Source of the DNA: Clostridium sp. 12(A)
GTDB taxonomy: Bacteria; Bacillota; Clostridia; Lachnospirales; Lachnospiraceae
Assembly (NCBI GenBank): GCA_000526575.1
Contig: JAGI01000001.1
Coordinates: forward strand, 1 to 64,000
Direction: 5' to 3'
Length of the DNA stretch: 64,000 nucleotides
In this document: piece after piece, positions 12,545 to 44,644 of the stretch
How the letters are laid out: every line of letters starts with the position of its first letter
Position numbering within the stretch: position 1 is the stretch's first letter
The notes under the pieces: model-generated
Databases searched by the model: none
The model's input: the letters and a program-made list of their open reading frames with translations, nothing else
What the model was told of the DNA's origin: nothing
Translations under genes and position numbers: made by a program

Positions 12545-13513
12545 TTGCTAAAAAAGCTTTTATTTTTACTTGCTGTGATTGTATGTGTTTTTCAAGGGGA
12601 GTCGTATGAAAAACACATATGGGCAGCAGAGTATCCTGAAATAAAGGTGGATACTCAAAAATCAGAGGTAATCATCAGATCTCAAATCGCCATTGATGAA
12701 AATGACAACTATATACCAGATGAGAGTTATACAGACCAAGATGGAAAAGAATTTTGGTTAAAGGAGTGGCATATAGAACCTCTTTATTTACCAGAAAGGA
12801 AGGAGTGGGCGGTACAAACGGTAGATTATAAAGAGGTGGAGTGGGCGGCGCAAATTCCTGAGCAGACTCCTATAACTATTAAAGATAAAGTTACTGGACA
12901 AACTGTGAAGCGAGATATCCCCATTTACCAAATGGAACCTGGTAATGAGCAGTGGGTTCCTGGATTTTCTTTTACTGCAGTATTTCACTCCTATGACGCG
13001 GATTACTATCAGCTGGGTGGTAAAAAAATTCCATTTGACAATCAAAAACCTCAAATAAAGGATTGCTACACGGAACTACTTAATGAAATACAGGTTGATC
13101 CTGAAAAATACAGGATTACGGATGCCGCATGGGAAGGAGATCCTTACATAGGTGATGGAGGTGTTATTTGTAGAAATGCTTTGGTGACAGGAGAAAAAAA
13201 AGTATCTGATTATCATGTGACTTATGGTGGAGAAGCAATATTACCTTCTTTTCAAGGAAATCAATGTGTAGCTGTTTATCGAGGGTTTAATTCTGTGACA
13301 GATGGTTGGGATCAGGCAGGAGAGCACCTTGTAAACTCAGGAGATTTCACTGGAAATGACAAGAAAGGAAGTTGGGTTATTTTTCGTAGAAGTGTTGTTG
13401 TAACATTTTCCATTTTATTAATAATTGGTTTGATTGTATTGGCGATATCCTTGAAACGAAGATTAAAACATATCAAAAAAAGAAAGGAGATAGATCATGA
13501 GGAGCTTTACTGA
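12545..13513 (+). CDS. Exported membrane-anchored protein, first gene of surface locus
   Basis: A 322-residue protein beginning at TTG (12,545), the only start that keeps the signal peptide (LKKLLFLLAVIVCVF...) and lies within reach of GGGAGGTG at 12,527-12,534. The large middle part is extracellular and rich in acidic and aromatic residues. It contains two short similar stretches (RKEWAVQTVDYKEVEWAAQIPEQTPITIKDK). A single membrane segment (about residues 282-303, VVVTFSILLIIGLIVLAISL) and a basic cytoplasmic tail (KRRLKHIKKRKE) close it. No LPXTG-like motif precedes that segment, so it is probably a fixed membrane component rather than a sortase substrate. I do not recognise the family. It overlaps the next gene by 17 bp, which indicates translational coupling. 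Confidence 0.8.
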   Translation: MLKKLLFLLAVIVCVFQGESYEKHIWAAEYPEIKVDTQKSEVIIRSQIAIDENDNYIPDESYTDQDGKEFWLKEWHIEPLYLPERKEWAVQTVDYKEVEWAAQIPEQTPITIKDKVTGQTVKRDIPIYQMEPGNEQWVPGFSFTAVFHSYDADYYQLGGKKIPFDNQKPQIKDCYTELLNEIQVDPEKYRITDAAWEGDPYIGDGGVICRNALVTGEKKVSDYHVTYGGEAILPSFQGNQCVAVYRGFNSVTDGWDQAGEHLVNSGDFTGNDKKGSWVIFRRSVVVTFSILLIIGLIVLAISLKRRLKHIKKRKEIDHEELY

Positions 13514-15755
13514 CAAGAAGAACAAGGGCAGATTAATTATTCTGACCATGTGCCTGACCTGCTTGCTTTTGCAAATGAACGTAAAGGCCAGTGAGCCTTT
13601 AACAGAAGGGAGTTGGAAGTGCATAGATGAAAATTGGTTTTATTTCAATAAAAATGGAGAGGCGCTAACTGGTTGGCAACAAATTAACGGTAGATGGTAT
13701 TTTTTAGCTTTCGGATTAAATGGTTTATCAGGGAAAATGCTGACCGGTTGGCAATGGATTGATGGCCGATGTTACTACCTTTCAGTAAAAACAGAAGAGA
13801 AATATCCCGAAGGAGCCATGTTTCTAAATGATTTAACTCCAGATGGATATCAAGTAGGTGAAACCGGAGCCTGGCTTGAGGGAACACAAATAATGGAGGT
13901 TCCCGGAAAAGGCATACAAACCGAAAGAAAGAATTCTGCTGCTGTATCAAAGTTCATCACAGGAGGAGGTGGAGGAGGCAATAGAAAAATCAGGGATTTC
14001 AATAGTTCAATTGATCAAGAACCTAAGTCAAATCCGGTAACGCCTTCTGAGCAGCCGTCTGAAACCAAACCCGATAAGAGTGAAAGTGAAATTCCGAAAA
14101 ATCCAGAGGGTCAATGCATTTATACCATCAAATATATGGACATAGATGACAAATCTACACTACAGGTAGTAACGGGATATGGGAAGGAGGGAGAAACCAT
14201 TCAGATAACACCAATAGAGATTGATGGTTACAGGATTTGTAAAGGGCAAAAAGATGGTCTTATTCTTACTGGCAACCACACAAATGTATCTGTTTATTAC
14301 CAAAAAGAAGCTCTTTCTTCTCCGTCGGAAGCAAAAAAGATTAGCTGGAATTTATATTTTATTGAAGGGGGAAGACCAGACAAAGAAATTTTAAAAGGAC
14401 AGAAAGGAGAGACTGAGGAAGGGAAAGAGCTTGTCATAGATTTTCCTGAAACATTTATAGGGACGGACAGATATTATTACCATTCCCTAGTATCAAGTCC
14501 CTGGAGTGTTGAGGTAAACGGCAATGGGATACAAAAGTACTATATTGAATTTAGAAAAGGAGAACAGATCCCAGAGGAAGCCGATCCAGATGATGAATCA
14601 AAGGAACGGTTACTAGACTGGCTAGAAACCGCAAGGATGGCAGATTATCTTATAACTGGTGAGTATCCAACGGAAATACAGCTCATTTCAACGAGTCAGA
14701 CCGAAGGAAATGAGCGGCTCCTCAACCTGGTCTCCATGGCTGAAGGGACAGAACGGAAAGAAATTTATCTGATTGCTAAGGGGTATTATCCAAGCGCTGG
14801 AATTATCAGTCAAAGGTTACCAATGATAAAGAATATTTCGGAGCTTCCAGTGGAGCAATTAACTATTTCAGGGACTACATACACTGTTTTGCGGGTTGGA
14901 TTTGAAAAAGCATATGATGAAAACATTTGCAGCCATGAGTATGAAATGATTGATAAAGTAGCTGCTACATGTATAGAGAACGGTCATCAAACCGTTGGAT
15001 GCAAAAAGTGTGGAAAGGAGGAAACAGTTATATTACCGGCTACCGGTCATATAGATGAGGACCATGATGGTACCTGTGATATTTGTCAAGAGCCGTCAGA
15101 TGAAGCTCCGGAAGCAGTACATTACAGTATTGGAGATGTACAGGTAAGAGCTATCGGAGACAAACTATACTTGTTCCGCTGCATTGACGATGATTATGAG
15201 GATGCCTTGGGAAAAAGCCAAAAGCTTGCTTTATTTATCTGTGACAGTGTAATAAGGTCTGATGTCCAAGGGTCTTCTAAAAAATTGAACTTTGGGGATA
15301 ACAATAATTATAAATATTCCAAAGTCAGGGGGTGGCTCCTTGAAAATGCCAAAGCTGATTTTGTTCATGATACTTACATAGGTATAACAAACTCTTATAT
15401 GGGATCAACGAGTACGGGAGCATATGAGCAGTTTTCAGAGAACAGCTTACAGGGAAAGGCAAGGTTATTTCAGCAGTTAGAGGACCGGGTGTTTATCCTG
15501 TCTGTGGATGAGGCAATTAAGTATAAGGATTACTTATGGAAGTTTAACGGGAGTGTAAATAACAATCCAGAATCTCAAGTTTCAGCTTACTCTAAAGGAT
15601 ATTATCTTCGTACACCGCAGGATAGTGGAAATTTAGATATTCAGTACGGGGATGCCATTTATACGGTTAGTTTGGTAGGTGGTAATATTCGGCCTGTGGA
15701 GGTTTCTGAAACAAACATAGGAGTCCGACCTGTAATGGCAATTCCACAAGGATAA
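13497..15755 (+). CDS. Exported wall-binding protein with MucBP-like and DUF6273-like domains
   Basis: A 752-residue exported protein. After a signal peptide (residues 1-33) come choline-binding-type repeats at about 38-130 (NWFYFNKNGEALTGWQQINGRWYF; GKMLTGWQWIDGRCYYL) ending in LTPDGYQVGETGAWLEG. Next are a Gly6 and Pro/Ser/Lys linker, a MucBP-like domain at about 205-270 (YTIKYMDIDDKSTLQVV...ISVYYQKE pattern) and a middle part of unknown fold. A Cys-rich segment at about 478-535 (CSHEYEMIDK, VGCKKCGKEE, LPATGH, TCDICQ) could form a small zinc- or disulfide-stabilised unit. The C-terminal domain (540-750: FRCIDDDY, YLRTPQDSG, GVRPVMAIP) resembles DUF6273. The binding module is N-terminal here, whereas its relatives in this locus carry it at the C-terminus. 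Confidence 0.82.
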   Translation: MRSFTDKKNKGRLIILTMCLTCLLLQMNVKASEPLTEGSWKCIDENWFYFNKNGEALTGWQQINGRWYFLAFGLNGLSGKMLTGWQWIDGRCYYLSVKTEEKYPEGAMFLNDLTPDGYQVGETGAWLEGTQIMEVPGKGIQTERKNSAAVSKFITGGGGGGNRKIRDFNSSIDQEPKSNPVTPSEQPSETKPDKSESEIPKNPEGQCIYTIKYMDIDDKSTLQVVTGYGKEGETIQITPIEIDGYRICKGQKDGLILTGNHTNVSVYYQKEALSSPSEAKKISWNLYFIEGGRPDKEILKGQKGETEEGKELVIDFPETFIGTDRYYYHSLVSSPWSVEVNGNGIQKYYIEFRKGEQIPEEADPDDESKERLLDWLETARMADYLITGEYPTEIQLISTSQTEGNERLLNLVSMAEGTERKEIYLIAKGYYPSAGIISQRLPMIKNISELPVEQLTISGTTYTVLRVGFEKAYDENICSHEYEMIDKVAATCIENGHQTVGCKKCGKEETVILPATGHIDEDHDGTCDICQEPSDEAPEAVHYSIGDVQVRAIGDKLYLFRCIDDDYEDALGKSQKLALFICDSVIRSDVQGSSKKLNFGDNNNYKYSKVRGWLLENAKADFVHDTYIGITNSYMGSTSTGAYEQFSENSLQGKARLFQQLEDRVFILSVDEAIKYKDYLWKFNGSVNNNPESQVSAYSKGYYLRTPQDSGNLDIQYGDAIYTVSLVGGNIRPVEVSETNIGVRPVMAIPQG

Positions 15756-15765
15756 GGAGATTAAG

Positions 15766-15930
15766 ATGCTACTAATTATGTCTTTGCTTCTTTTAATTAT
15801 CGTTATCTTCTCTGCAATATTCTTAGGTAATATCCTTAAAATAAGTCCAGAACAAAGGGAATTCAATGATAAGGAACAAATGATTTGGATAAGAGAATTT
15901 AAACAAAGAGTACAGGAGAAAAAAACATGA
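15766..15930 (+). CDS. 54-residue membrane peptide between surface genes
   Basis: This small gene lies 10 bp after the 752-residue protein gene, with AAGGAG before its ATG. It overlaps the next gene by 4 bp (ATGA at 15,927-15,930), the usual sign of translational coupling. The N-terminal half is one membrane helix (LLIMSLLLLIIVIFSAIFLG); the rest is a charged tail (SPEQREFNDKEQMIWIREFKQ) likely to be cytoplasmic. No family is recognised. Its size, coupling and position suggest an accessory of the export or assembly of the surface proteins, which is inference. Confidence 0.75.
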   Translation: MLLIMSLLLLIIVIFSAIFLGNILKISPEQREFNDKEQMIWIREFKQRVQEKKT

Positions 15931-18900
15931 AAGGGAACGGAAAAAGAATATTAAGTCTTTGCCTTGTTGCTGTGATTGCAGTGACCACAGTAGGTTATGC
16001 ACCTCCATTTACGGCTTCAGCCTTGTGGAAGACAAATATGGAGAAAGCATTGGAATTACTTGCGTCTCCGTCTGAAGCGTTCAAGCAAGGAGTAATGGCA
16101 ACACAATCAGAGGCTGAACGTCCGGAGCGGGAAGCAACACCATCGGAAGCTGAGATACCAGATGGAAAGGCAACACCTTCAGAGGCTGTAAAAAAGTTTA
16201 TGAAAGTTGAGCCAGAAGAAATTCCGGAGTATTATGACCAGGAATCAGCGTCAGGAAAGAAATTTTGGAAGTTTGAGGATCGTAATGGAATGATTCAGTA
16301 CCGGGATTATGGATATGTAGATGGTGAAGCGGAATTTCCGCTATGGTATGAAGCAGATCAAGTAGGAAGTGTTGGAGATATGTTCTCCTCCGTCAATTTG
16401 GATGAGGAATATTACAGCTTAGCACCGTACATATTTGAAAGTGTTGTTCCGGACAAAGAAGCCTGGACAGATTTATCCTGGAGACTGTTTTTTGACAGCT
16501 TTAGTATTGAAGATTATGACAAAAAAAAGATAACCGTGTTTAAAAACTGGGATACATCTGCCTATGATATCTGGCAACTGACTGGTTCAGAAGATGAATT
16601 TGAATATCATTTTTACGGAACGATTCTAAATGAGTCAGAGGCGAGAGAACCAAATTGGTATGATTCGGATAAGGAAGGAAATGTAGTATATATCCGTAAT
16701 TTGTTAAGGACAAGCCTGGCTACAAGTGAGATTTTACATAAATTATATTATAGCAGTATGAGGATTATAAATGACAACGTATCCGTAGCAGATAACACAA
16801 GTAATCCTGGTACTTATGATACGGAAGATACTCCAGTTACTTTATGGACACCGAGTTGGAGTGGATATACTTTTTTGGGCTGGGCAGACTACTATAATTA
16901 CCCAGGCGGAAGTCCATTTAGCAATAATACAGTCGTTAGTAGTCCACAAAACCATAAATGGTTATTATATGGGGGAGGATTCTTTAAAGCTGGGACAACA
17001 ATACGTAGAGGTGATGTGAAGAATTCAGCAAATCTCTATGGCATGTGGAAACCAAATGGTACGTATACTCTTCAGCTAGTAGGGCAACCAGCCGAGGAAT
17101 ATTATCCTAGTTTATATAAAGGAAAGGCTTTGGGTAACTGGTATTTGATAGTAGGAAATCCTGGTAGAATCATTGACTTGAATGATTATAAAGATCCTAC
17201 ACTTGATGGGTATACGTTTGCGGGGTGGTATTCAGGAACGCATGGCACTGGAATACGTTATACTGAGCCTATAACTCTTAATTCTAATATAGTGTTGTAT
17301 GCAAATTACACTGCCAATACAAATACTATCGAATTTTTAGATTACTATGGAAATGTCATTGGAGAACCGCAAAGTATTATAACTGGAGATAGTGCCATAC
17401 CTCCACAACCACCTGAAATAGATGGAATGGATTTTGTTGGTTGGGATAAGAGTTTTACAAATGTAAATAAAGATATGGAAATAAAAGCACAATATAAAAA
17501 GATCCCCAATATTACAATTAAATACATGGATACTGGGTCCTCCGGTGCTAATGTCCTTAAAACGGAAACAATAATTGCAAGGGGAAAGGCAACTCCTCCG
17601 GAGGTAGATCTTTCAAGTTTACCAGTACCTAAGAATGGTTATCATTATACTGGTACCTGGTATGGTTCGGGTGGTACAGGTATACCTAATGTGAATTTGG
17701 ATTGTGTAGAGACATATGATTCAAAGACCTATTACAAAGATAGTACTGTGTATTTGTACCCAAAGCAAGAAGGTAATATGGTGAAGGTAACGTTGCATTC
17801 CAACGATGGGCAAGATGTCACCAAAGTGATTGATGTTCAATATGAAAGTGGATTATATTGGTTAGATGTAATTGATTCGGAAACATATAAAAAAGGACTT
17901 GTAAATGAAAGAACTGGGTACACCTTTTTAGGCTGGGATACTAAACCAGACTCAACATACCCGAATCTTCCGACATACTATAAATTAGATACACTGGATA
18001 TATACCAAGTTTGGAAACCAAATCCATACTACGTTATATTTGACAAGCGTGTTTCTGGTGAAAGCAACCCTTCAAATGTCCAGGTGATTTATGATAAGCC
18101 AATAGGCAAGTTACCAGAAGTAACCAGTAAAGGATTAGATTTCTTGGGATGGTACACATATTATACTGGCGGAACCCAGGTAACAGAAGAAACATTGATG
18201 CCTAACCGTGATTTCAATCTATATGCTCGGTGGTCAAGGTATCCTACAAACATAACATATGATTACAATTATGAGGGGTCACCAAATACATATACGTACA
18301 CAATGTATACGGCAGATTATACATATCAGCAAATATACACCAATATCGCAAATCGTTCTGTGCCAACCAGAAAAGGATACACTTTCACGCGTTGGAATAC
18401 AAAACAGGATAATAAAGGTAGTTCATTTTATCCAAATACATCATCCAGTTCATATTATTATATACCGGAAAGTAGGGATTTTACTGTGTATGCCATATGG
18501 AATCCTTTGGATGTTTATTTAAGACTTTACAAAAATACAAGTAGTTCGGACACATCTACGTTGTCCTCCATATCGTGTAAATACGATGATCAGGTTGGTA
18601 CATTACCAGTAGTTCAAAATGGAGATAAAATTTTTAAAGGATGGTACACAGAAAGATCCGGAGGCAATAAGGTAAGCGAAACAGATAAAGTTATTTATAC
18701 AGTTCCAGGATCATTGAATTACTGGTATTTGTATGCGCAGTGGGCAAATCCCCAAAGCAAAGTGACTTTCAAAGATTGGGATGGTTCCATACTATGTGAA
18801 CAATCCATTCCTTATGGAGAAAAGGTAGAAGTTCCGGAAACGCCAGCTCGTGATAGATATCGTTTTACTGGTTGGGATAAATCTTATGAAAATGTTGAGA

Positions 18901-21900
18901 CCGATACGGTTATAACCGCTCAGTATGAACTAAGTTCACCCATCCTTACGTTAGATGCCAATGGCGGCAGCTTTTCAGATAAAACCAGTCTATTGTTTGA
19001 TGTAAAAGCTGGGGATTCTCTGGATCAGATTCTCGCAGATGAGAAAAGTAAGGTGTCCCGTAAATATTATACATTTGATGGCTGGTATACAGCAGCTACT
19101 GGGGGAACCAAGTTACCGGAAAGCGGAAATATTATGCCACCATCAACGGACTTAACACTTTACGCCAGATGGGTGAAAAGCTCCTGCGAGGTCATTTTTA
19201 AAGACTGGGATGGGGCTGTGCTGGAAGTTCAGGAAGTACCAATCGGAGGAGATGCGGTCAACCATATTCCGGAGAGAACCGATTATGAGTTTATGGGGTG
19301 GAATCGCTCTTTAACCAATATAAGGTATGACACAACAATCACAGCTACTTATATTTTAATATCAAAACTTGAATATGGATATAACATATTCTTTTCTAGA
19401 TTTGGATACAACAAGTATACAAGTTACGTACAATCCATTAAAAATCATCAAAATGTGGCTTATTTACATAGGAAATTACTTCCTGGAAAAAGTACAGATA
19501 ATTATTATTTGGATACGGATTATTATAACACATCAAGATATACTACAGAAATTGATTTTCCAAATGAAGTAAGTGATGATAATAATTATTTCCTTGGCTG
19601 GGGAACATCTGTTAATGTTCGCCAAGTACCCATTGGCGGATTATATGCTTACCAACACCTATTTCCTTTAAGAGGTCAAATAGATGTAGATGAGACAAAT
19701 CGGCTATATGGTTTTCCTTTGTTTAATTCGAGAGAAAAAGTGAAAGTAAGGGAGTTTATGGGGCTAGATCAGGGAGGAATGGGGTCAAATAATGAAGGTT
19801 TAGGAGTTACATCATTATATGCCCTATATTTACCTCAAGATAAAGCGAGTTTAGTCTTAGTAAATGGATTTAAAGATTACTATTCAACTTTCCATACAAC
19901 GTATAGTAATGATTGGGATCATAGCAATATTGGAGAATCCAATTTCACCACCGTGTTCCAGGAAGATACTCCTTTATTGGAAAGTATCAGTATAGAAGAT
20001 TTTGGCAGTAAGGTAAATATTTATTCTTCTTCAAATTATCCCGACCAGAGAATTTATATTCGGAATAATAAGGAAGAAATTATTGCTTTCAGAGACACGT
20101 CTAACGCTAACAAATACTGGTATAAAACTCATAAATTAGTAGGATATTTTTCTGAACCCGATGGTAAGGGAAAGGAGTTATTGGGAGAGTATACGTTCAA
20201 TAAAGTTGATGACAGATACTATGCATATTGGGCACTGAAAGACGCAGAGTTTCATGTGACCTTTAAAGATGATAATGGAAATGTTCTTGGCAGTGAAAAT
20301 GTAATTGCAGGAGAAGCGTGTAAGAATGTACCAATTGCATCCAATAAATCGGGATACAAATTTATAGGGTGGCAACCAGTGGACTCAGATAACAATTCTT
20401 CTACAGATAAGATAATAAGAGACACTACTTTTATTACTGCCTATGAAAAATTAGCCACTTATCAGCTGATTTTAGATGGAAATGGTGGAACCCTGAATGG
20501 AAGTCCTAAAAAAGAACTGGAAGTTGCTTTTGAGCAATTGTTTGATCAGACACTTAAAAATGGTAGAGATGCGATAGAACGTCCTGGATATCACTTTGAT
20601 GGTTGGTACACCAGTGAGGCAGGAGGAAATATTTATTCCTATAGCGGTAACCAAATGCCAGCTGCTAACGTGACAGTCTTTGCGCACTGGACACCTAATA
20701 TTTATCAAGTAACCTTTGATCCGGATCATGAGAGATGGTCTGGAGGAGTAACGAAGAAAGAAATTACATTTGATACGCAACAGGGGAGTTTACCAGCACC
20801 AGAAATATATGGTTGGAACTTTTTGGGTTGGTGGACAGGTAAAAATGGAACTGGGACAAAGATCACAGAACAGTCCAAAGTTGAACCAAAGGACGCAGTA
20901 TATTACGGTAACTGGGAAGCTGTGACTTATGAGGTACGATTTGTATCGTCTGTTGAGCAGCCAACTGGAGAATCCGTACAAACATTTACAATGAATCAGA
21001 AATATGATCAGGCGTTTGGCAGTCTGCCTCTTCCCGTAGAAAAGGGATATACCTTTCACGGATGGTATGATTCAGATAATAATAAAATCAATCCTCAGTC
21101 CATTTTTCAGCCAAAATCCGGAGCGGAAGAATATATCTATCATGCAGAGTGGAAAGCAAATCCATATAAAATCCGTTTTGTTTACACGGATGCAGATGGA
21201 AAACAGAAAGTAATAGAAATAGACCGGAATTATTTTATGCAGCTTGGAACACTTCCGGTTCCAGAAAAACCTGGCTATACATTTGTTGGCTGGTTTAATG
21301 ACAGAGGAGAAGAAATCACTTCTGAAAGCTGGGTAGAATCAGGAAATATGGAATATAAGGCTAAGTGGATAGCAAACCAGTATACAGTTCACTTCAACAG
21401 TAATTTGGACTCCATGAGTGATCCACAAGATAAGATTGTAACGTATGCGCAACCTATAGGAGATTTGCCATTATTACATGCATCAGGATATGTCTTCCTG
21501 GGCTGGTATACGGAAAGCTCAGGAGGAAGCCTAATCAAAGAGACCACACTGGCAGCACTGGGAGATCAGACCTATTATGGCCGCTGGTCTACGGGTCTAA
21601 TTGATAATGGGAATGGTACATATAGAAAACCAGGATTAGATGGCAAATGGAATACAGCAGATGATGAACTCTGGTGGTATGGACCGGATGAAATTATAGG
21701 TACTGATGATGACAGGCAAATTTATCTTATGCTCGGAGGAAATGGTTATTACGTAAACTATGGAAATGGCACTTACTTAAGACCGGGAGCCGGAGGAAGC
21801 TGGACAAGCGGAACCGAACTCTGGTGGTATGGATCAAATGGAAAGCCAGGAGCTGGTGACCACCCAATCTATCTTATGCCTGGAGGAAATGGTTATTACG

Positions 21901-28007: not shown

Positions 28008-28214
28008 TTAAGAATCCCCTTCTTCGATAAACTCCATGATATCACCTGGCTGCAAGTTTAAGTGTGAACAGATCTTACATAGTATATCCGTAGTGACACT
28101 TTCCCCCTTTGATAATTTTGCAAGTGTAGGGCTGGAGAGGATATCCAGTAGATCAGTCTTTTTCATACCTTTGCGGTTGAGTAGATCAAATAATTTATAA
28201 TATTTCATTCCCAT
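28008..28214 (-). CDS. Small XRE-family helix-turn-helix regulator
   Basis: A 68-residue protein read leftwards, with a strong AAGGAGG before the ATG at 28,214. It is one Cro/C1-type DNA-binding domain: KLFDLLNRKGMKKTDLLDILSSPTLAKLSKGESVTTDILCKICSHLNLQPGDIMEF, matching the YozG-like single-domain group. It is the only reverse-strand gene inside the 32-kb surface locus. The AT-rich region upstream carries repeated CTAATATAATGTTA elements that could be its operators, so it may control itself and the small gene and exported protein to its right. That regulatory target is inference. Confidence 0.88.
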   Translation of the reverse strand: MGMKYYKLFDLLNRKGMKKTDLLDILSSPTLAKLSKGESVTTDILCKICSHLNLQPGDIMEFIEEGDS

Positions 28215-35500: not shown

Positions 35501-38500
35501 AAGCATTATAAGACAGATGCTCCAAAAGAAATTGAACTTCCAGCGGTATACGAAGGAGGGAAAGCCGGATCAGATCAGACGCCAGAAGCAATGAGTCACT
35601 ATTACAACTATAATGCTTCTGACAGTGTGGCAGCACTTTCTTCCAAATATCATATTCGATTTAATGAGGAATGGCCGGGAGAGAATGGAGAGGACAAGCG
35701 AAAATATGTCATCCGGGCGCACAGCCGGTTAGGAGATTATGAAATTTATCCTTATGGCTTAGACCTTCAGGCAATTTCAGGTTCTTCTCCTGGAGATCCG
35801 TCCGGAAAGGGACACTTTACCATCACCCAGGAGAAGAACGATCCGGGAAAAGATTACTATAACACCCTGGTCTACTCCAAAGAAGCCGGAGGCAGTCCAG
35901 ATAGCCATTACCTGGCTGACGATGGAAACGCCGGAAAGAGAACGCCAAACGGTTTCACCTATGAGACCGATGGAGTGGAAAAAATCTACCGTTACGGCTC
36001 TATCTCAGAGGACAAACAGATCTATGACCAGGTGGCTTTTCCATCCGGGAGCGGAGTGGTCTATCAAGACCATGTCACAGCCATGGAGGGAATGCAGACC
36101 GCCTATGATGGCAAGTACGCTTCCATGTTAGTTCCCTGGTCTATGACAGAACCGGCCAATGAGCAAACGGATGCGGTCCAAAATAAGGATGGCACCTCCA
36201 GCTACAAAGGGTATGGATACCGGAAGTTCACAAACACCTTTTATAAAAGCCGGCTGCGGATCGAAAAGCTGGATTCCGAGACAGGAGAAAATATCTTACA
36301 TGATGGGGCCATCTTTGCCCTGTATGCCGCTTCCAGAGAGGACGGAGAAACCACGGATGGTCTGGTGAAATTTTATGAGACAGATACCAGAATCAAAGGC
36401 TCTAAAGAGTTTTTAGAAGCCATGGGAGCAGATAAGATAGATAATTCAAGATTGCTGGGTGAAACGGGGCAGACTCTATGGACCGGAATCGTCCCGGCAG
36501 GAACCCCTATCTGCGAGGAAGCAAAACAAGTAATCCTTTCCGATCAGGAAGGACGGAGAACTGGACAGTTCGAAGCCTTTACCACCACCAGGGACGGCCT
36601 TCAGGCCAAGGAGGAGGATAACGGAAAGACGGAGTATCAGGATCAGAACACCGGATATCTTGTCACTCCCCAGCCTCTTGGCGCAGGGACGTATGTTCTT
36701 TGTGAAATTATGCCTCCTGCTGGTTATGTGAGGACAAAGCCGGTGGCCATTGAAGTCTATTCCCATCAGACTACTTATTACCTGGACGGAAACCGGGATG
36801 AGAGAGTGGCCGCAGCCATTTATGAGAATAAAGATTTAAAGGAAAAAACTTCTAGAATCTATGTGGGAAATACCCCGGTCCGCTTAGAAGTATCCAAAAT
36901 CAAGGATTCAGCCCAGACTGTTACCTATCAGACCAAAACCAGAGTGGAGGGAACAGAACTGGAATTAAAGCAAAGATACGGAGCGGAAAACCTGGAGTTT
37001 GGCTATAAAAATGGAACCTACTTAGGATATGGCTGGTTCAAAGGAACCTTAGAGTCACTTCTGGCCAGAAAAGAAGCAGGAGAAGATGTGGAGCCAGTTT
37101 ACTTGAATGGTGTGTTTGCTGGATATGGCCTGGTCTCCAGACCACTGGATACCGCTGACGATAAGAACCGCTACGCAGCTGGAGCAAAAATGGCGCTATA
37201 CGATGCCATTGAAATCAAAGAAAACGGAGACAGCGGAGATTACGGGTATGATGGCGTGGAAGTGACCAGGGACCGTAACAACAACGTCCAGTCCATAAAA
37301 CTGAAAAAAGGATACGCTGGAACTACCGTAGAATTTATTAATAAGGAAAATCAGGAAGGAAGCCTTTTGGGAGAGACCGGAGAAGGAACCTGGACGTATC
37401 AGACCGTTGACCGGGAGGATACCGATATTCTCTTTTATTCTCTGGCAGATCTTACGGTTACAGAAACAGGCGCCGATGGAGCAGTCTACGGCTATGACAG
37501 AAACAGCAATAAGGTATCTGTAAAGAACCGGGAATCCATCTTTGTGTTAAAGGCAGGAAACCCAGTCTTTGAACTGGCTGGGGGAGATTTAATCAAGGTC
37601 CGCTATACAAAGGTAGACAAGCTCCTCACGCTACCGTCTGGAACAACACTTTATCACTTAGATTCCGAAGGGAACCGGGATTCACTTGTTAATCCTAGCA
37701 CCGGAATGGCCTATATCCGGAGTAGCGAGGCAGACCCCAAAGATAACAACAAGCTTATGGTATGGCCGGTAAAGCTTTCAAAAAATAAAACTGGGGCTAT
37801 TATAGCCAGGGAAAAGATAAGAACCTTTCGAATTGCTACCGTGAATGCAGATACCGATCAGGAGTACACCACTGGAACGTACCAGGGAAAAACCTTTCAA
37901 AAGAGCATGAATCCGGTATTCAACGGCCATGGCCTACCGGAGTATTATCAGAAATCCAATGAAACCTATAAAAAGGGAGATCCTATTTATGACATTGACG
38001 GGGATTATGTGAGATACAAATACGATGATCTCTTGGAGGCTTTTAACCGGGTCGCTTACCAGATAAATCATAAGGCCGAAAGAGATGCTATCGGTTCGGA
38101 AGAGGATATCACCGATGATCCGAAGCTCTACTACCGCCAGGGAGAAGCCTGGGTCATGGAAAATACCTGGATCACTGGAGAAACCTATCCCAATGATCCG
38201 TTCCAATCCGAAAAATCCGTGGGACAGGCAGATATGTTAAAGCGTGTGATTCCAGGAACGTACATCATGGAAGAGGTAAAGGCCCCTTCCGGCTATCAAA
38301 AAGGCTTCCCCCAGGGAATTACCGTAACGGAACATAGAGAGGTGCAGACCGCTTCTATGGAAGATCCAAAGATTAAAGTGGAGATTACGAAAACCGATGC
38401 CTCTAGTCAGTACCGGATTCCAGTGATTAGTGACTATGACCAAGGGTCAGACTATAAGTCTTCTCTAATAGTAACGGAACCCAAAGGCACTTACAGCTAT

Positions 38501-41500
38501 CAGCAGATCACAGGGGCGCACCTGGTGCTTTATAAAGCAAAGAGAGTTTCCACCACCGACAGTAACACCTATCCCAAAGGTTATTATCTGGTAAAAGCAG
38601 AAGACAAACCGGCTGAGTGGACCGTAGAAAATACGGAAGATAATGCACCGGTGCGTATTGTAGCCGACTGGATCACGGATGGGAAAGCCAAGTATTTTGA
38701 AGGCATCCCGGCTGGAGACTATATCCTGGAAGAAACGGAGGCAGCAAGTGGATATGTCAGAACTTCCATGGAGATTACCGTAAAAGCAGCTGGTGACGTT
38801 CTGACCTTTGACCTGACCAATGATCACACCAAGCTTGATATCTATAAATACTATTTAGACAGTAAAGGAAATCGGTTGCTGTTACCAAACGACCACGCTG
38901 CAGGTCTTGCTCTTTACGAAGCAAAGACAGACCAAGACGGAACCATTTTGATGGAAGGAGGAGTACCACAGTACGATGAGTCAAAAAAAGTAGGGGAATG
39001 GACCACGGACAATTTAAGCGATTATACAGAGCTGACAGAAAAGAGTACGAAATTCGCGGACCGCATGAAAGGCTTCTTAGGGATAACGGATAATAGATCC
39101 AGCTTCTTAACAGACTTTGAGGCTGCTTACCGGGAAAAGGGAGAGGAACTTACCTATCTTACCTGGTACACCAAAAGCGGAATACGGAGTGCGGACCGGA
39201 CCGGGAGCATCTCAACCGGAAAGGGAGAGAGCATGACTCAGACCTGGACAACCGACACAGGGGCAACAATCCGGATCACCATTTACCGGAACGTCACAAA
39301 TGGCGCTTTGGATACGGATGGAAAGCTGCCTTTGATCTTTGAATACCAGTTCAATTATAAGGAAAATGACGGTATAAAATCCTATGACACCTTAGAGGGA
39401 ATGCACCGTTTTGATTATCTGCCTTTGAATGCAGAAACAAACGGGAAAAAGACAGGAGCCTATGTCCTGGTAGAAGAAAAGGTTCCGGATGGATTCGAAC
39501 CAGCTGATCCAAAAGCAATCACCTTAACGGAAACAGGAGCCGTACAACGAGTCAGCTTACAAAATGAAGAGAAGTTCATCAATGTCTTAAAAGTTGTCAC
39601 AGATGGAACCAATCAGTATGCAGCCGAAGGGGCAGAACTTGCCCTATATCGGGCTGATGAAGACGGAAACTTTATAAAGGATGAAAATCACTTTGTAGAG
39701 ACCTGGATCTCCGGATTAGACGGACGGTATACCAAAGAAGATCAATTTAACGACAAAATCATAGACGGATTCCAAGTGGGAGATCGAAAGCCCCACCAGA
39801 TCAGTAAGGTCGCATATGGAACATACTATATTTTAGAAATCACCCCACCGGCTTATATGCAGAAAGCAGATCCAGTAAAAATCGAAGTGGGAGCAGAAAA
39901 AATTCCAGTTTATCGTTTCATCAATCACCCCACCGTTGGAGCGTTAGAAATCAATAAAAAGGCTTCCGACACCACAGAAGGCTTAGAAAATGCCAGATTT
40001 AAAGTGACAAACAAGGAAACAGGAGTTATCTGGTATATGACAACCGGCACCAAAGGAAACGCCGTTTTGAGAGATCTTCCAGTGGGAAAGGTTCAGACAG
40101 ATGGAACCATAAAAGCCTACACTTACACCGTAGAAGAAATCTCTCCTCCTGATTATTATCAGATCACCGCAGGAGTGAAAAAGTTCCAGTTTGATGGGGC
40201 AGAGAGTGGAACGGAAGTGAAATACAGCTATGAGGTACTAAACAACCCTACAGAGATCCAGTTTAGAAAAACGGACTTTAATACCGGTATAGCCGTAAAG
40301 GGGGCAGAGATTGCTGTTTATGAGGCAGCCGTGGTAGATGGAGAATATCAAAAGAACGGAGGGGCCATTGCAACGGTTGTTTCCGGAGAGAATGGTTTTA
40401 TCTTAAAGAAAAAACTTAAAGCAAACCAGGTCTACATCATGGAGGAGTTAAAAGCTCCAGCTGGATATGCGCTATCAAAACCAGTGATCTTTACGGTAAA
40501 TAAAGCTGGAACGGGAATCAAAAATGTATCCAATAATTTCAATGTATTAAAACTGGCCAGCGATAACGGAGCCATTGAAGCACTTACCATAACTGGCCGG
40601 GTGCCCGTAAAAGTATATACCGTGATAAAGGACCTTGACACTGGCTATGAATTGCCAGCCTTAATCGGAACTGGAGAAAATCAAAGAGTAACAGTAAGGG
40701 ACGGCATTACAGAAGGCCACTTGTATGAGATTACAGAGTATACCAAATATTCCGATGGAAGGTCAGAAAAATCATTTAAGGAAACCAGGCGAATCTACTT
40801 CAATGAAAATGGGGATTATACCCTCCCTTCCCGGACGTATCTGGGAACCAGACAGGAATTAAAGGATGGGAATGGGAACATCCTGGCAAGCTGGGCGGTG
40901 AATAATGATAATCACGATTACACGATTTTAAATCCGGTAATCAAGGAAGTTCCAATCGCCAAGGTAACTAGCAGCATTGGAGCGAATCATGGAGCTGTCA
41001 AGACAGGAAGTGTTATAAAATATTCTATCACATATACAAACACCTATGACAAACCGACCGATATTCACATAAAAGCAGTTCTAACAGATGGACTGGAATA
41101 TTTAAGATCCACGGACTATGGAACGGAGCGGAATGGCATTATCACGTGGAATCTTACCGATGTAGCTGCCCATGAAAGCGGAACGGTAGACGTAGTTGTA
41201 GTTGTAAACGGTGAGACAGGATCACAAGCAAAAGCATGGTTTGAAACAAGCGTAAATGCTGTATCAAAACGTACCGTCCTGTCAAATCCGATTGTTCCAG
41301 ATGGATCAATCACCATTATAAATAAGCTAACAGGTACCGGAATACCCAGTAGTGCGGGGCACACTGCGAATCAACCGGATACATTTACATACCACGTAAG
41401 GCTTACAGACCAGAATGGAGCAATTTTATCTGGCTATCAGGCATTTAAAGGTTCCTTAGAGGGACGAATCAAGGGAGAAAGAACCATTACTCTTTCAGGA

Positions 41501-43537
41501 GATGGATATATAACATTTACCGGACTCCCATACGGAACCAGATACGAAATCAGACAGGAACCAGCAGACGATTACGAACTGGAAGGAGAAATCAGAACCG
41601 GAGAGATACAAAAGACGTTGCAGAGTGCTGTCTTTATAAATAACAGAAATGATTATACTATTCGTGAAATTCTAACAGCAGGGGGTAACTATTGTCTTAC
41701 TGAGACTACTGAATACAGCGATAAAAACAGTATTACAAGTGGAATATATAGATTCTCCATAAATAATCTGGGAATGGTTGATAATCTGGATATGGAAGAT
41801 CGTCCAGTGAAATTAAATTTTCTTAAAGTTAGCAGAGAGACTGGACAAATCATAATAGGCGGACATTATAGCCTCATTGATGCCATTAGTAATAAGGTTT
41901 TGTATGAATTTACAATGACAGAAGCAAAATTAGTGGAAATACCTTCTCAATTAATAAACTCAGGTCAGCCGTATATTGTCCGTGAGGATATAGCTCCAGA
42001 TGGTTACTCTTATGAAAATGATATACTTTTTACAGCTGATAATGCTGGTATTTCAGAAACCATTGTTATGGAAGATAAACAGACTGAAGTGTATATTCAA
42101 AAAACAGATGAAGAGGCAGGAACGATATTATCTGGAGGCCGCTTTTCCCTCTTGGAGAAAGATACCGGGAAACTCATAAAGTCCTTTACATTTGAAGGGA
42201 AACAAATCCTAATAAAGGGGCAGCTCATTGCCGGAAAATCCTATGAATTGATAGAAGAGGAACCCCCTGCGGGATATGCTTATAGTGAGAAAATAGAGTT
42301 TATGGTCCCCAGAGAGCCAACGAAGCTTACGGTAACAATGAAGGATAAGAAGACAACAATTTTCATAAAGAAAACTGCAAGAGTGCATGCAAATGGAACT
42401 CCATCGGAAGCCGAGTCTCTCTTACCAGGCAATATTCTTCAGATATTAAATGAAGACAAATCTCCAGCAAAAGCCATTAGAAATTCAGATACTTATAAAA
42501 TAGGTGAGGAGCTGATTTTTACAACAACAGAAGAGATGAAGGTAATAAAAGGTCAGCTATTAGCTGGTCATCAATACTGGATTCATGAGGTAAAACCTGC
42601 AAAGGGTTATTCCTATGGAGAAGATGTTCCCTTTACAGTGAGCTTGGACGGAAAATTCGATGAGGTTTTAATGGTTAATGATGAGACTCATGTAATATTA
42701 TCTAAAAAATCTATCAAGGATCAAAATGAACTCCCAGGTAATCTAATGAGTATAAGAGATCAAAATGGTGCAATCATAGAGCGGTGGATATCGACTCAAG
42801 AACCTCATCATATATTTGGAAAGCTGGCAGCAGGAGAATCATATTTTCTATGTGAAGATAAGCCTCAAAAAGGATATGCGTACGCAGAATCTGTCTTATT
42901 TACTGTAGAGATGCAAAATGAAATCACACCAGTAGAAATGGTCAATGATACAACAAAAATTAAAATACATAAGGTAGATTCCAAAGGAAGGCAGCTTAAA
43001 GGCGCTGTACTTCGAATCGTAAACATGCAAGGGAAAGTTATAATACCTGATTTTACAACAGGACCAACAGAAACCATAATAGAAGGGCAGCTGGAAGCAG
43101 GAGAAAAATACATACTTAAAGAAATAGAACCTCCTGAGGGATATCAATTTTCTGAACCGGTTGAATTTAGTGTACCAAGAGCCAATATAGTTGCTAATGT
43201 ATTCATGACAGATTTAAAAACTCCGGGAAAAACGGGAGGAGATCCAATACCATTACCACCACCACCCCAGCCAGATCCACCCAATGAGCCTTCAAAAGTT
43301 GGTAAAGTTACTGCCTTTTATCAAAAAGTCCCCTTAAATCCTTCCTGGCTGGAACTGATTTATGGTAAAAAAGGAAAGATAAAAGGGGAGAAAACGGGAG
43401 ATCATTTTTCTTTTCTCATTTGGACCATGGGGGTATTCATCAGCCTGACAGGTACAATTATTACATTGAAGATAGGAAAACAAAAAAAGAACAAAAAAGG
43501 CCAAACAGAAAACGTGATTGGAACTACAAGTAAATAA
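29531..43537 (+). CDS. 4668-residue SpaA/Cna-B-type giant surface protein
   Basis: One uninterrupted frame of 14 kb. A signal peptide (about 1-40) leads into an N-terminal domain with Cys118 in FIYCVQG, a context reminiscent of thioester adhesin domains, although the matching Gln was not certain. SpaA/Cna-B-like modules recur throughout (LAGSRWDILEKF, GAVYGLFAATD, GAIFALYAAS, GAELALYRAD, GAEIAVYEAA), often followed by EExxAPxGY-type ends typical of isopeptide-bonded domains. A Glu/Thr-rich segment lies at about 770-885, and a DUF11-like domain at about 3805-3925 (IKYSITYTNTYDKPTDI). Five or more Cna-B repeats occupy about 4090-4560 and a poly-Pro stretch lies near 4573. The end is GEKTGD, a membrane segment (about 4625-4650) and a Lys-rich tail. 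That is a sorting-signal layout, but the motif is not LPXTG. A class B sortase gene follows. Likely a sortase-attached stalk-like adhesin. Confidence 0.88.
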   Translation: MKKLLQKMELRRKTAGVMAVILTTMAFLPYVPPTMVSFADYAQLIEAVSFPSWNAARYEADNNKNYTATGLMYENKVFHLGSSVSEGNFPAGAKQYLVENKQYRKGEFKEFDKTFIYCVQGHNRNTMIHLGSQAFFEKYWTATSRPEEFPKDIGNEDLEKFNFLMNVYGSYMGKNDSIEACNDANAGTAKYIVASVINWIAADECAFTGINLATDLKIFQESKNYQAVMKQMNPNAVGDRSVYNQLSSTQIPEEYKAKGCTNWAEWMFGQVWDAATVTRTLDVDAEETIYHAKVDHATETYTITVPYSNAAVNDYYQRFSAKDLYGDWTYNGPTDAGLVFSSQSGDVPTDGKGIGVLYWANPGQYGLELAKDIGSAKLATFKFYTQVQGSYQYAFDVSQTYFVAKLDKELEIHVVPGSLPNGVKRYKHTEAFGANYNVSLSTFDSETGKPLAGSRWDILEKFDDSQLDNTDLDLDGPESYSSNLGSLTGASWEEDAGGDEERISTNYSGDTGLNDFGANLYNQGNSSGSQFKRWSNPENDPCSADDHITNQNGELHYVDSLGRMVNKKAHSDAKSYTYEKGYCSGHPAPVIEYEEVPEPEYDEETGDPTNEDDIERVEEENQALHDTKWAEWLSGVQECERLVEKGGFFHAIDPSGAPQKEALEQDRDQFYKDFISLDYEYSAKETTPAPGYALHGSHPDDIPLEWRTVSSSEYKNYRSSGMRSVNLEEDSISLDTSLLQKDDFTSRQDLLMGFGTVEQVDMVNEKDFIVSDYEEETERETEVEVSSENEAIEQQEETQPEMEAENQKETEAEEVEEASSEAIEATTEAEIQPEISAEVPEETTAQEETPQSQAETLKETIPETLPLELPQPVKKKKATLSQADAINGGISFTGFLEQIKASITSSLRMVADKTNSLFKLTSKKKGAGGSSSLSSLPESTETSRISPPSSSTIDWTFIVYDHRVEGDIHINKKDMDLEKGESGNYNAYGDTQGDGSMEGAVYGLFAATDVSHPDGHSGVVFQKDDLVSIATTDRNGEASFLTITQTPGHTFNYQTGAIEKRSGGFADRAPTNLYTSMGKAVSKESDIERFEGHTSGGSSISMTDSRSETASGYQKLSSNQGRDGTGESSHFYPIENNETLNGNAWIGRPLLVGADGTQYYIKELTRSEGYELSVYGKDAAHTNREAFEAGGNPSAEGTVSAGSLEVDRLKKSNTFTIKSSGATNGYQIYALGIPAGASFYETRSQIVEDPKGTHTEYVSREETALAEEAGAKVIINGQSVAAKAGDTITLPNGESVVVSLVSDPEYDYTAVRPDNALRYTIPTFEDKKNTEDLMEDANAALKKASFKEPDEGAPWMLIPVEGETFEEQAKSLYEGMEEAGLSVFNCLRIEEITDGNAVICYSYRVGTSISTGIYDEARKIVLVKQPITYKIKGAEVNGYIYLSYPVDRLEDYKENSNGFLTFAKVKAGELSKKQAVFPEDLSKITLQESPERTYWVYDQGEPIRNNDGSIKKVMVESEIQVAPGYELKDVDTPVTAVYDGTGYTIEASGGEGTETKEYRIKYNTELMEGTYTTPQEYAEYYGNISVTPKMASAGSYIESVTLRYDRTRIDSDGGTRQAPVSLQGRPIMQKVKITKDISVQADGTYEDNTFAKAGGKDNYTKQGGGTKDNAAYMKNFRFKVYLKSNLERLYRAEDGSILWQDRNGNIVDIKAYRTSFPEKAQKLYTNVDHETTPLKKDSNQAAIANTELYSYTDGLIGTDQNTGYTAILEKGLQKVKDEAGNDRETSGYNYEKFFDGIKVANEDKWDRTDNGSTSFKPFAWIKQLLFGTGGGQKEYPAIHNNPDMKNNINTSPKAESNSQRSDHVRQFAITWYLDDEVAKLVKQNPAGEREGAFEQKKYPDELYDKALSEAIKKAENYLKPFFSYDLDEIYSIHWDSEEEGGKDKDTTTLSADHEDAEAGYCYGVSEYLPYGTYVAVEQQPFNKELGDLFNKHYKTDAPKEIELPAVYEGGKAGSDQTPEAMSHYYNYNASDSVAALSSKYHIRFNEEWPGENGEDKRKYVIRAHSRLGDYEIYPYGLDLQAISGSSPGDPSGKGHFTITQEKNDPGKDYYNTLVYSKEAGGSPDSHYLADDGNAGKRTPNGFTYETDGVEKIYRYGSISEDKQIYDQVAFPSGSGVVYQDHVTAMEGMQTAYDGKYASMLVPWSMTEPANEQTDAVQNKDGTSSYKGYGYRKFTNTFYKSRLRIEKLDSETGENILHDGAIFALYAASREDGETTDGLVKFYETDTRIKGSKEFLEAMGADKIDNSRLLGETGQTLWTGIVPAGTPICEEAKQVILSDQEGRRTGQFEAFTTTRDGLQAKEEDNGKTEYQDQNTGYLVTPQPLGAGTYVLCEIMPPAGYVRTKPVAIEVYSHQTTYYLDGNRDERVAAAIYENKDLKEKTSRIYVGNTPVRLEVSKIKDSAQTVTYQTKTRVEGTELELKQRYGAENLEFGYKNGTYLGYGWFKGTLESLLARKEAGEDVEPVYLNGVFAGYGLVSRPLDTADDKNRYAAGAKMALYDAIEIKENGDSGDYGYDGVEVTRDRNNNVQSIKLKKGYAGTTVEFINKENQEGSLLGETGEGTWTYQTVDREDTDILFYSLADLTVTETGADGAVYGYDRNSNKVSVKNRESIFVLKAGNPVFELAGGDLIKVRYTKVDKLLTLPSGTTLYHLDSEGNRDSLVNPSTGMAYIRSSEADPKDNNKLMVWPVKLSKNKTGAIIAREKIRTFRIATVNADTDQEYTTGTYQGKTFQKSMNPVFNGHGLPEYYQKSNETYKKGDPIYDIDGDYVRYKYDDLLEAFNRVAYQINHKAERDAIGSEEDITDDPKLYYRQGEAWVMENTWITGETYPNDPFQSEKSVGQADMLKRVIPGTYIMEEVKAPSGYQKGFPQGITVTEHREVQTASMEDPKIKVEITKTDASSQYRIPVISDYDQGSDYKSSLIVTEPKGTYSYQQITGAHLVLYKAKRVSTTDSNTYPKGYYLVKAEDKPAEWTVENTEDNAPVRIVADWITDGKAKYFEGIPAGDYILEETEAASGYVRTSMEITVKAAGDVLTFDLTNDHTKLDIYKYYLDSKGNRLLLPNDHAAGLALYEAKTDQDGTILMEGGVPQYDESKKVGEWTTDNLSDYTELTEKSTKFADRMKGFLGITDNRSSFLTDFEAAYREKGEELTYLTWYTKSGIRSADRTGSISTGKGESMTQTWTTDTGATIRITIYRNVTNGALDTDGKLPLIFEYQFNYKENDGIKSYDTLEGMHRFDYLPLNAETNGKKTGAYVLVEEKVPDGFEPADPKAITLTETGAVQRVSLQNEEKFINVLKVVTDGTNQYAAEGAELALYRADEDGNFIKDENHFVETWISGLDGRYTKEDQFNDKIIDGFQVGDRKPHQISKVAYGTYYILEITPPAYMQKADPVKIEVGAEKIPVYRFINHPTVGALEINKKASDTTEGLENARFKVTNKETGVIWYMTTGTKGNAVLRDLPVGKVQTDGTIKAYTYTVEEISPPDYYQITAGVKKFQFDGAESGTEVKYSYEVLNNPTEIQFRKTDFNTGIAVKGAEIAVYEAAVVDGEYQKNGGAIATVVSGENGFILKKKLKANQVYIMEELKAPAGYALSKPVIFTVNKAGTGIKNVSNNFNVLKLASDNGAIEALTITGRVPVKVYTVIKDLDTGYELPALIGTGENQRVTVRDGITEGHLYEITEYTKYSDGRSEKSFKETRRIYFNENGDYTLPSRTYLGTRQELKDGNGNILASWAVNNDNHDYTILNPVIKEVPIAKVTSSIGANHGAVKTGSVIKYSITYTNTYDKPTDIHIKAVLTDGLEYLRSTDYGTERNGIITWNLTDVAAHESGTVDVVVVVNGETGSQAKAWFETSVNAVSKRTVLSNPIVPDGSITIINKLTGTGIPSSAGHTANQPDTFTYHVRLTDQNGAILSGYQAFKGSLEGRIKGERTITLSGDGYITFTGLPYGTRYEIRQEPADDYELEGEIRTGEIQKTLQSAVFINNRNDYTIREILTAGGNYCLTETTEYSDKNSITSGIYRFSINNLGMVDNLDMEDRPVKLNFLKVSRETGQIIIGGHYSLIDAISNKVLYEFTMTEAKLVEIPSQLINSGQPYIVREDIAPDGYSYENDILFTADNAGISETIVMEDKQTEVYIQKTDEEAGTILSGGRFSLLEKDTGKLIKSFTFEGKQILIKGQLIAGKSYELIEEEPPAGYAYSEKIEFMVPREPTKLTVTMKDKKTTIFIKKTARVHANGTPSEAESLLPGNILQILNEDKSPAKAIRNSDTYKIGEELIFTTTEEMKVIKGQLLAGHQYWIHEVKPAKGYSYGEDVPFTVSLDGKFDEVLMVNDETHVILSKKSIKDQNELPGNLMSIRDQNGAIIERWISTQEPHHIFGKLAAGESYFLCEDKPQKGYAYAESVLFTVEMQNEITPVEMVNDTTKIKIHKVDSKGRQLKGAVLRIVNMQGKVIIPDFTTGPTETIIEGQLEAGEKYILKEIEPPEGYQFSEPVEFSVPRANIVANVFMTDLKTPGKTGGDPIPLPPPPQPDPPNEPSKVGKVTAFYQKVPLNPSWLELIYGKKGKIKGEKTGDHFSFLIWTMGVFISLTGTIITLKIGKQKKNKKGQTENVIGTTSK

Positions 43538-43540
43538 ACA

Positions 43541-43756: not shown

Positions 43757-44644
43757 ATGATTCAAAAAGATCAAAAAAGGTTAAAAAGTCGAAAGGAGAG
43801 TCAAATAGAGATTCCAAAAGAACATAAGAAAAACCAATATAAAAGAAACCAATATAAAAGAAACTATCAAATCCAATTTTCATATCCCAAGCTATTGCAT
43901 TTAGTCAAAAATCTCAGACCGCTAAAAGTATGCCTCTTAGCATTCTGGTTTTCTGTATTTCTTATATCTTCAATAAAACTAACCAATAAAGCAAATCTAT
44001 ATATGTCCTCCAATAAAGAATACGCAAATCTGAACCAAGCCATTTGGAGCACTCAATCTGACAACATAAAACCAACCACTAATATAAAATCCAGTTATAA
44101 ATCACCTATTGAAATCAATCCAGATTACCTCATGTGGTTATCCATACCGGGGACGTCTATTGATTATCCGGTAGCAAGAAACCAACAGCCTGGTTATTAC
44201 TTAAATCACACCTTTATGCGAACTAAAAACCCAAGTGGCTGCTTATTTGTTCAAGAAGACGCGCCTGACCCCGGAGATGGCAATACGGTAATATTCGGCC
44301 ATAATATGAAGGACGGAACAATGTTTGCAGACTTAAAGCGATACATAAAGCCGGAATTTTATAAAGCTCACAGTATAGTCCAACTACATTACAAGGGCAA
44401 ATGGTATCAAGCAGTTATCTATTCCATCCAACTTAGAAATGAAACTGATCTTACATGCTATGAAACAGAATTTTCACTACCATCGGAAAAAACAGAATTT
44501 ATCTATAAGATGAAAAATAGCTCCATGTATGAGACGTCCTATTTGCCAACCTCCAACGATGGTTTAATCACCTTATCAACCTGCTATGGATCAATGGAAC
44601 GAATGATTGTACAGGCTGCTTTGATATGCTATACTAATGATTAG
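43757..44644 (+). CDS. Class B sortase
   Basis: A 295-residue membrane transpeptidase. A long basic cytoplasmic N-terminus contains a duplicated NQYKR NQYKR unit, followed by one membrane segment (about 55-76), then the sortase fold (MWLSIPGTSIDYPVARNQQPGYYL). Catalytic residues are visible: His182 in FGHNMKDG, Cys276 in LSTCYG and Arg282 in MERMIVQAAL. The GHNM-x-DGTMFADL pattern marks class B. The Cys-to-Arg distance (6) is shorter than in many SrtB enzymes. Lying directly after the 4668-residue gene, it probably attaches that protein to peptidoglycan or to another subunit; the substrate is inferred from position only. No AGGAGG precedes the ATG. Confidence 0.9.
   Translation: MIQKDQKRLKSRKESQIEIPKEHKKNQYKRNQYKRNYQIQFSYPKLLHLVKNLRPLKVCLLAFWFSVFLISSIKLTNKANLYMSSNKEYANLNQAIWSTQSDNIKPTTNIKSSYKSPIEINPDYLMWLSIPGTSIDYPVARNQQPGYYLNHTFMRTKNPSGCLFVQEDAPDPGDGNTVIFGHNMKDGTMFADLKRYIKPEFYKAHSIVQLHYKGKWYQAVIYSIQLRNETDLTCYETEFSLPSEKTEFIYKMKNSSMYETSYLPTSNDGLITLSTCYGSMERMIVQAALICYTND

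Follow-up and report, generated by a model that had tools for sequence, protein, structure and literature searches.

The window analysed here, the first 64 kb of contig C1 in the three-contig, 4.6-Mb genome of Clostridium sp. 12(A), contains eight plus-strand genes for surface or membrane proteins, which are referred to below by the lengths of their products (Table 1). All eight had been proposed by a sequence-only reading of this DNA and were found with the coordinates and lengths given there. The first five genes form a tight block: the 322 and 752 genes overlap by 17 nt, the 752 and 54 genes lie 10 nt apart, the 54 and 2546 genes overlap by 4 nt, and the 2546 and 1394 genes lie 8 nt apart. 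These distances, taken from ORF coordinates, bear out the suggested translational coupling for this block. A spacer of ~950 nt separates the 1394 gene from the 243, giant and sortase genes that come after it. The small HTH gene that had been placed among the eight is present, but it lies on the minus strand inside this spacer, so that the locus looks like two blocks. A "broken small frame" was also mentioned, and no such frame was recognised; two small plus-strand ORFs in the spacer (28036-28200 and 28405-28602) match no Pfam family. A short element 3′ of the 1394 gene, at 27932-27985 (around TTGACAACCGAATATGTTTAACCGATAG), recurs slightly changed in L097, L099, L100, L105, and L110, and its position near the HTH gene makes it a possible promoter or operator.

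Table 1. Features of the locus, with positions in the window.
Feature	Position	Strand	Basis
322-aa membrane-anchored protein, unnamed family	12545..13513	+	Sequence, homologues
752-aa secreted protein, wall-binding repeats, DUF6273 C-terminal domain; core gene	13497..15755	+	Pfam, gene-order survey
54-aa protein, single hydrophobic segment	15766..15930	+	ORF list, hydrophobicity
2546-aa protein, variable cargo	15927..23567	+	Pfam, repeats, relatives
1394-aa secreted protein, Big_2 domain and C-terminal wall-binding repeats	23576..27760	+	Pfam
68-aa HTH_26 (Cro/C1-type) gene	28008..28214	-	Pfam, E 7.8e-12
243-aa secreted protein, wall-repeat-like tail	28712..29443	+	No Pfam match
4668-aa giant: predicted thioester tip, stalk, sorting signal	29531..43537	+	Pfam, tip alignments
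Cys118 codon, motif YCVQ, predicted thioester Cys	29882..29884	+	69/69 tips, every alignment
Gln399 codon, motif SQTYF, predicted thioester Gln	30725..30727	+	69/69 tips in four refined MAFFT modes
Sorting motif GEKTGD without proline, then hydrophobic segment and basic tail	43385..43402	+	Giant C-terminus
Class B sortase, N-terminal hydrophobic segment	43757..44644	+	Nearest structures, residues

Four of the products had been credited with wall-binding modules. By Pfam, choline-binding repeats pass the cut-off in the 752- and 1394-aa proteins; the C-terminal repeat of the 2546-aa protein is weak (22.1 bits vs. a cut-off of 27), and the 243-aa protein has no match in Pfam or NCBIfam, its tail being tied to wall repeats solely by similarity to repeat regions of other proteins of the locus and of relatives. 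The 752-aa protein also has a MucBP-like segment just under the Pfam cut-off, the 2546-aa protein contains 12 Flg_new (InlB-type) repeat stretches together with 48-aa tandem repeats, and homologues of the 54-aa protein occur in L098 and L103. Since the wall repeat has 66 matches genome-wide, such repeats alone are not special to the locus. The genome has one LicD-family gene (C1:84955-85650), which is no proof of a choline ligand for the repeats. A 178-aa wall-repeat protein is encoded at 45812-46348 (minus strand) between the Gfo/Idh and clpB genes, and similar ORFs oppose these genes in L026, L089, L194, and L197.

Upstream of the locus lie DUF1385, PrmC and release factor (PCRF/RF-1) genes; a Gfo/Idh/MocA oxidoreductase gene and clpB follow downstream. 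One side or the other of this setting (DUF1385-prmC-prfA or Gfo/Idh) is also present in G033, G046, G132, G201, G214, and L101, which indicates that the window site is an old chromosomal position. The 368-nt stretch between prfA and the 322 gene (11149-11516) has DNA identities of 95% (L198) and 87% (L101). A weak Rfam match to BsrG at 11185-11429 on the minus strand (E 0.02, 20.9 bits vs. a gathering threshold of 55) suggests, at most, a type I toxin-antitoxin module in this spacer. At 12251-12283, about 260 nt before the 322 gene, a perfect tandem repeat of a 7-bp unit (4.7 copies) might be a phase-variation tract. The prfA-322 spacer of the close relative L198 has a 40-bp tandem repeat in twelve copies (3639-4120). 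Elsewhere in the window, a 773-aa protein with collagen-like triple-helix repeats is encoded at 1511-3832 (minus strand).

Gene order in relatives

The 1394-type gene served as the marker for finding the system elsewhere. A scan of named genomes with a profile of this type gave 238 matches, the best 80 of which correspond to 76 loci; the closest relatives of the 1394-aa protein among these 80 include those of [Clostridium] aerotolerans and Lacrimispora xylanisolvens (93% in the best segment). Within the same best 80 matches a 752-type gene lies upstream at 61 of 65 testable loci and a giant downstream at 70 of 72, testable meaning more than 3 kb of upstream or more than 2.5 kb of downstream sequence, with profiles built partly from the same species. 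Loci with a miss in this core order are L140, L148, L156, L165, L166, and L170. Because the core order holds at these testable loci, the genes cannot be described as scattered and never co-occurring. Its retention in other species indicates that the locus is more than a chance assembly. At L132 and L168 the 752-, 1394- and giant-type genes are broken into many frames, through either decay or sequencing error.

The 322 family follows the system closely. It was present in 45 of the 47 genomes with a 1394-type gene that were searched for it (covering 50 of the 76 loci), and in two of 291 genomes across the class, one of them the source genome itself. In a 200-genome sample of the family, 322-type sequences occurred in 16 genomes and the giant N-terminus in 13, with 12 in common where about one would be expected by chance. 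At 57 places of a 1394-type gene (57 of 67 rows, ten weaker or partial ones being left out), the 322-type sequence was a separate upstream gene in 8, a separate downstream gene in 13 and part of a fusion in 13, while 23 had none near. "Near" here means no more than 15 kb upstream or 30 kb downstream on one contig and strand, a count that contig ends lower.

Other components vary. L096 has a full-length 2546-type gene; L097, L103, and L110 carry diverged or shorter versions, L114 keeps a remnant, and in L098, L101, and L120 the slot lacks the gene. The giants of close relatives have two tip types: in bins across residues 46-420, identity is 54-91% within the window type (eight relatives) and 9-17% between the window tip and the other type, whereas residues 2271-3470 are 77-83% identical even across tip types (L192, L195). 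Tip divergence and the presence/absence pattern of the 2546-type gene fit a core that stays fixed while the tip serves recognition and the cargo is exchanged. An adjacent sortase was found for few giants: none was detected near 31 of the 40 for which the C-terminus and 2.8 to about 12 kb of downstream DNA were available, in a search with a seven-sequence profile of class B-type sortases (E 0.001), which other sortase classes could escape. Left out of the 40 were L171 (contig ends), G220 (1385-aa frame) and L041, a 926-aa relative without a TG motif that has a sortase about 1.4 kb past its 322-type gene; the L193 giant was counted although split into two frames. The earlier interpretation holds in part: a conserved surface apparatus is supported, with the 2546-aa protein as variable cargo and with no adjacent sortase found for most of the giants examined.

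Varying cargo between core genes, giants with no adjacent sortase found and sharply different tips in close species are also what a hotspot of independent surface genes, neighbours by accident, would produce. We consider such a hotspot very improbable given the order kept at the testable loci among the best 80 matches. The same order occurs at L191, L192, and L195, which show no prfA or Gfo/Idh neighbours, and parts of the locus are fused to one another in relatives, as described below.

The giant protein, its tip and the adjacent sortase

The giant has a SpaA/CnaB-type stalk with 8 Pfam SpaA stretches and one DUF7601, and the sortase-type tail ascribed to it is present as a C-terminal sorting signal. 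Stalk domains of this type would suit a pilus whose many subunits are joined by the class B sortase, with the giant as tip or shaft. According to the available parts of the literature, the pilus polymerase of S. pyogenes is a class B sortase, and a C. perfringens pilus operon encodes another (PMC8088525), so that the contrast drawn earlier between this locus and known pili with class C sortases is weaker than claimed. A sortase-polymerised pilus is nevertheless improbable, since among the eight locus proteins a TG directly ahead of a hydrophobic segment and basic tail occurs in the giant alone. Neither a small major pilin nor a second pilin with a sorting signal is seen, and a chain of 4668 aa is long without polymerisation.

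Across 69 tips in 11 groups under 40% identity (L121, L132, L168 and frames <900 aa left out), identity falls to about 15% and Cys118 and Gln399 are nevertheless kept, being the sole fully invariant columns of residues 1-427 in the four refined MAFFT modes. In an unrefined MAFFT alignment the Gln399 column holds for 46 of the 69 tips while Cys118 holds for all 69, so the invariance of Gln399 depends on good alignment; in a 42-sequence tip alignment Gln399 is conserved at 90% or more. The window's YCVQ agrees with the [YFL]C-phi-zeta pattern of thioester domains, with Ala, Trp or Gln before the Cys in some relatives, and SQTYF fits the Gln-flanking pattern in part. The TQXX-phi-W motif is not found in the window tip, where the corresponding VASVINW keeps the Trp and has lost the Gln; both residues are kept in 5 of 15 aligned tips, and this Gln is not required for the thioester bond according to the available text of PMC6194298/PMC8092201. 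The spacing of Cys and Gln is 281 in the window and at least 211 in the 11 group representatives (with L145 misplaced by a few residues), as against 171 and 204 in known class II thioester domains, values computed from residue numbers in the accessible part of PMC6194298. A profile of the five tips that keep TQXX-phi-W had SaTIE-TED (6fx6) as its top PDB match, at E 0.21, with the tip Cys and helix Gln both aligned. The 42-sequence profile retrieved no thioester structure from the PDB, a Pfam search of eight tips gave no thioester domain, and the AlphaFold model of the window tip has a mean pLDDT of 46.5. Conservation of Cys118 and Gln399 fits the published thioester-domain signature, and a thioester in the giant tip is likely.

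This signature bears on whether the locus might instead make a protective or matrix coat, a layer of wall-binding proteins and giant with no specific target. Several wall-repeat proteins adjoin one another, and the 2546-aa protein is repetitive and variable, as a coat component could be; that coat-like protein is not core, however, and the conservation of a Cys and a Gln while the rest of the tip has diverged suggests that the tip is reactive, so we regard a coat as unlikely. The locus had been read as a composite adhesive or protective layer, of which the adhesive part is favoured by the tip signature and the protective part finds no support either way.

The enzyme at the end of the locus had been called a class B sortase, and its nearest solved structures are indeed sortase B (best E 5.6e-31), although it scores 143.3 bits against TIGR03064, under the cut-off of 153.75. 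His182, Cys276 and Arg282 stand where the catalytic residues are expected; His182 and Cys276 are invariant in seven of seven sequences, and Arg282 in six, with Lys in L027. Sortases are near universal in the family (175 of 200 genomes at E 1e-10), and the source genome has two matches to the sortase family. The four best non-self matches of the window sortase come from G033, G046, G132, and G119, all relatives with this system.

Known motifs of class B sortases usually contain proline (NPQTN, NPKTG, (S/P)PXTG), and GEKTGD of the adjacent giant, the putative substrate, has none; NVQTG, likewise proline-free, has been proposed for C. difficile CbpA in the available part of PMC4155245. Proline is absent from the motif in each of the nine giants whose class B sortase is adjacent or fused (GEKTGD, GARTGD, GRKTGD, LTKTGD, LIRTGD, and SAKTGD), compared with 3 of the 31 without such a sortase. 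Fisher's test gives p 8e-7 if the rows are independent, which they are not, and tree-based comparisons yield two to three independent pairs, none opposite, which is not significant. Among 20 downstream or giant stretches, such a sortase was found solely behind the SAKTGD giant, and the L210 and L219 giants have a proline-free motif with no such sortase nearby. Because the pattern comes from about three lineages, the pairing of a proline-free motif with an adjacent class B sortase is suggestive.

The 322-aa family and its fusions

In the 322-aa protein a mostly beta domain is flanked by an N-terminal signal-like segment and a C-terminal TM, the latter followed by a short basic tail. The protein matched no family in Pfam or NCBIfam, signal peptidase families included, and Foldseek and VIA-align searches with its structure model gave no convincing match, so that its role is deduced from genetics. 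The TG of the window protein (FTGND) lies more than 10 residues ahead of the TM and is unconserved. Lone 322-type genes lie shortly upstream of clpB, with giants elsewhere, in L031 (7817-8836) and L032 (8891-9679), and L028 (5113-8452) has one two genes upstream of an EcoRV-type restriction endonuclease gene.

The 322-type domain lies inside a far longer frame, of 1175 to 5268 aa where the whole frame is known, in 20 chains from 18 genomes (eight read first, twelve in a second set). Each runs in the order stalk, internal motif, hydrophobic segment with basic residues, second hydrophobic signal-like segment and 322-type domain, the hydrophobic segments being assigned visually and with a Kyte-Doolittle scan, which misses some; a last TM after the 322-type domain ends nearly all of them. 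The internal motif has TG in 18 of the 20 (8/8 in the first set, 10/12 in the second), the exceptions being L175 with KVGD and L182 with QFGD. One chain only, L077 (G119), runs on through a further TM into a class B sortase. In a tree of the 322 domain, fused and separate forms require at least four changes, two of them forced by well-supported branches. These fusions suggest that the stalk, the 322 domain and, once, the sortase act together. A different family, of 1633-1653 aa, joins a PQTGD motif, a TM, a second TM and a class B sortase domain in one frame (L084 3223-8184, L085 7084-12006, and L092 3111-8012).

Keeping this arrangement in mind, it is conceivable that surface fibres are made as membrane polyproteins comprising adhesin, internal sorting signal, second signal-like segment, accessory domain and, once, sortase, which would then be cut by sortase (and perhaps also by signal peptidase) to give a fibre linked to the wall and an assembly unit that stays in the membrane; the window would be the split form, with a matched sortase reading the proline-free motif. 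We offer this tentatively, giving it slightly less than an even chance. Internal translation starts in the fused chains are a possible alternative to cutting.

The 322-aa protein could also be a sensor or anchor rather than an assembly factor, with uncut fusions anchoring the fibre in the membrane. Its extracellular-type domain, C-terminal TM and short basic tail would serve that role, as would the two fusions without TG at the internal motif. We find it doubtful, since TG lies between stalk and 322 domain in the other 18, as expected if the chains are cut there, and since the proteins are separate in the window.

A proposed surface fibre and known systems

Taken together, most likely this conserved cluster of gut and environmental Clostridium relatives builds a very long wall-anchored surface fibre. 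With moderate confidence, we propose that the window locus encodes a fibrillar adhesin of giant size and thioester-isopeptide type, together with a matched class B sortase, an accessory membrane protein of a new family and companions bound to the wall non-covalently. The thioester bond, the sortase pairing, the role of the 322-aa protein, wall binding and adhesion, which we infer, would combine as follows. The 4668-aa chain would be exported, its SpaA/CnaB-type domains forming a long stalk that projects the tip. The class B sortase would cut at GEKTGD and join the giant to peptidoglycan, and the Cys118-Gln399 thioester would bond covalently to an amine on the target surface. The 322-aa protein would stay in the membrane beside the sorting site and help the sortase by holding the sorting signal or presenting it. 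This role is proposed by analogy with SipA, which class B sortase pili of S. pyogenes need and which, in the available part of PMC4049620, is proposed as a sorting-signal recognition aid or scaffold; the 322 family may be its counterpart without being related to it. The 752-, 1394-, 243- and, optionally, 2546-aa proteins would coat the wall through their repeats.

Several parts of this scheme are already known, namely thioester adhesins, class B sortase pili, SpaA stalks and choline-type repeats. As described in the accessible parts of PMC6194298 and PMC8092201, the TIE adhesins with class II thioester domains (BaTIE, SaTIE, EfmTIE86, and TIEpLS20) likewise have a tip with conserved Cys and Gln and a CnaB/SpaA-type stalk, and three of the four have a sortase anchor. 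The giant differs from them in length (4668 residues vs. 778 for TIEpLS20), in its wider Cys-Gln spacing and in having no Pfam thioester match, and on the same partial evidence the window locus differs in its class B sortase, new membrane family and wall-repeat partners. The S. pyogenes FCT-2/3/4 regions (with SipA) and C. perfringens VR-10B (with a signal peptidase), to judge from the available descriptions, also place a class B sortase beside surface subunits and a further membrane protein; the window has instead one giant chain, a non-proline motif and a 322-aa protein without a signal peptidase family match. C. difficile SrtB is another clostridial class B sortase, and several of its predicted substrates end in ...TGD plus a TM, but in the accessible part of PMC4155245 it cleaves (S/P)PXTG, whereas GEKTGD has no proline; strain 630 has a single sortase, compared with two in the source genome. 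Fibrillar adhesins are likewise long, with stalk domains and often a sortase anchor, but the available part of their survey, which uses LPxTG, IPxTG, LAxTG, NPxTG and similar motifs, would not count GEKTGD and does not describe companion genes (PMC9210967). Our literature search did not meet the conserved combination, the 322 family, the polyprotein forms or the xKTGD pairing.

If this interpretation is true, sorting signals need not be C-terminal, class B sortase specificity would extend to motifs without the usual proline, and gene fusions would provide evidence for an unnamed sortase-linked membrane family. The predicted thioester adhesion would be directly testable through one Cys and one Gln, and predicted covalent adhesion would be extended to a conserved giant fibre in Lachnospiraceae, among them Lacrimispora, Hungatella, and Enterocloster.
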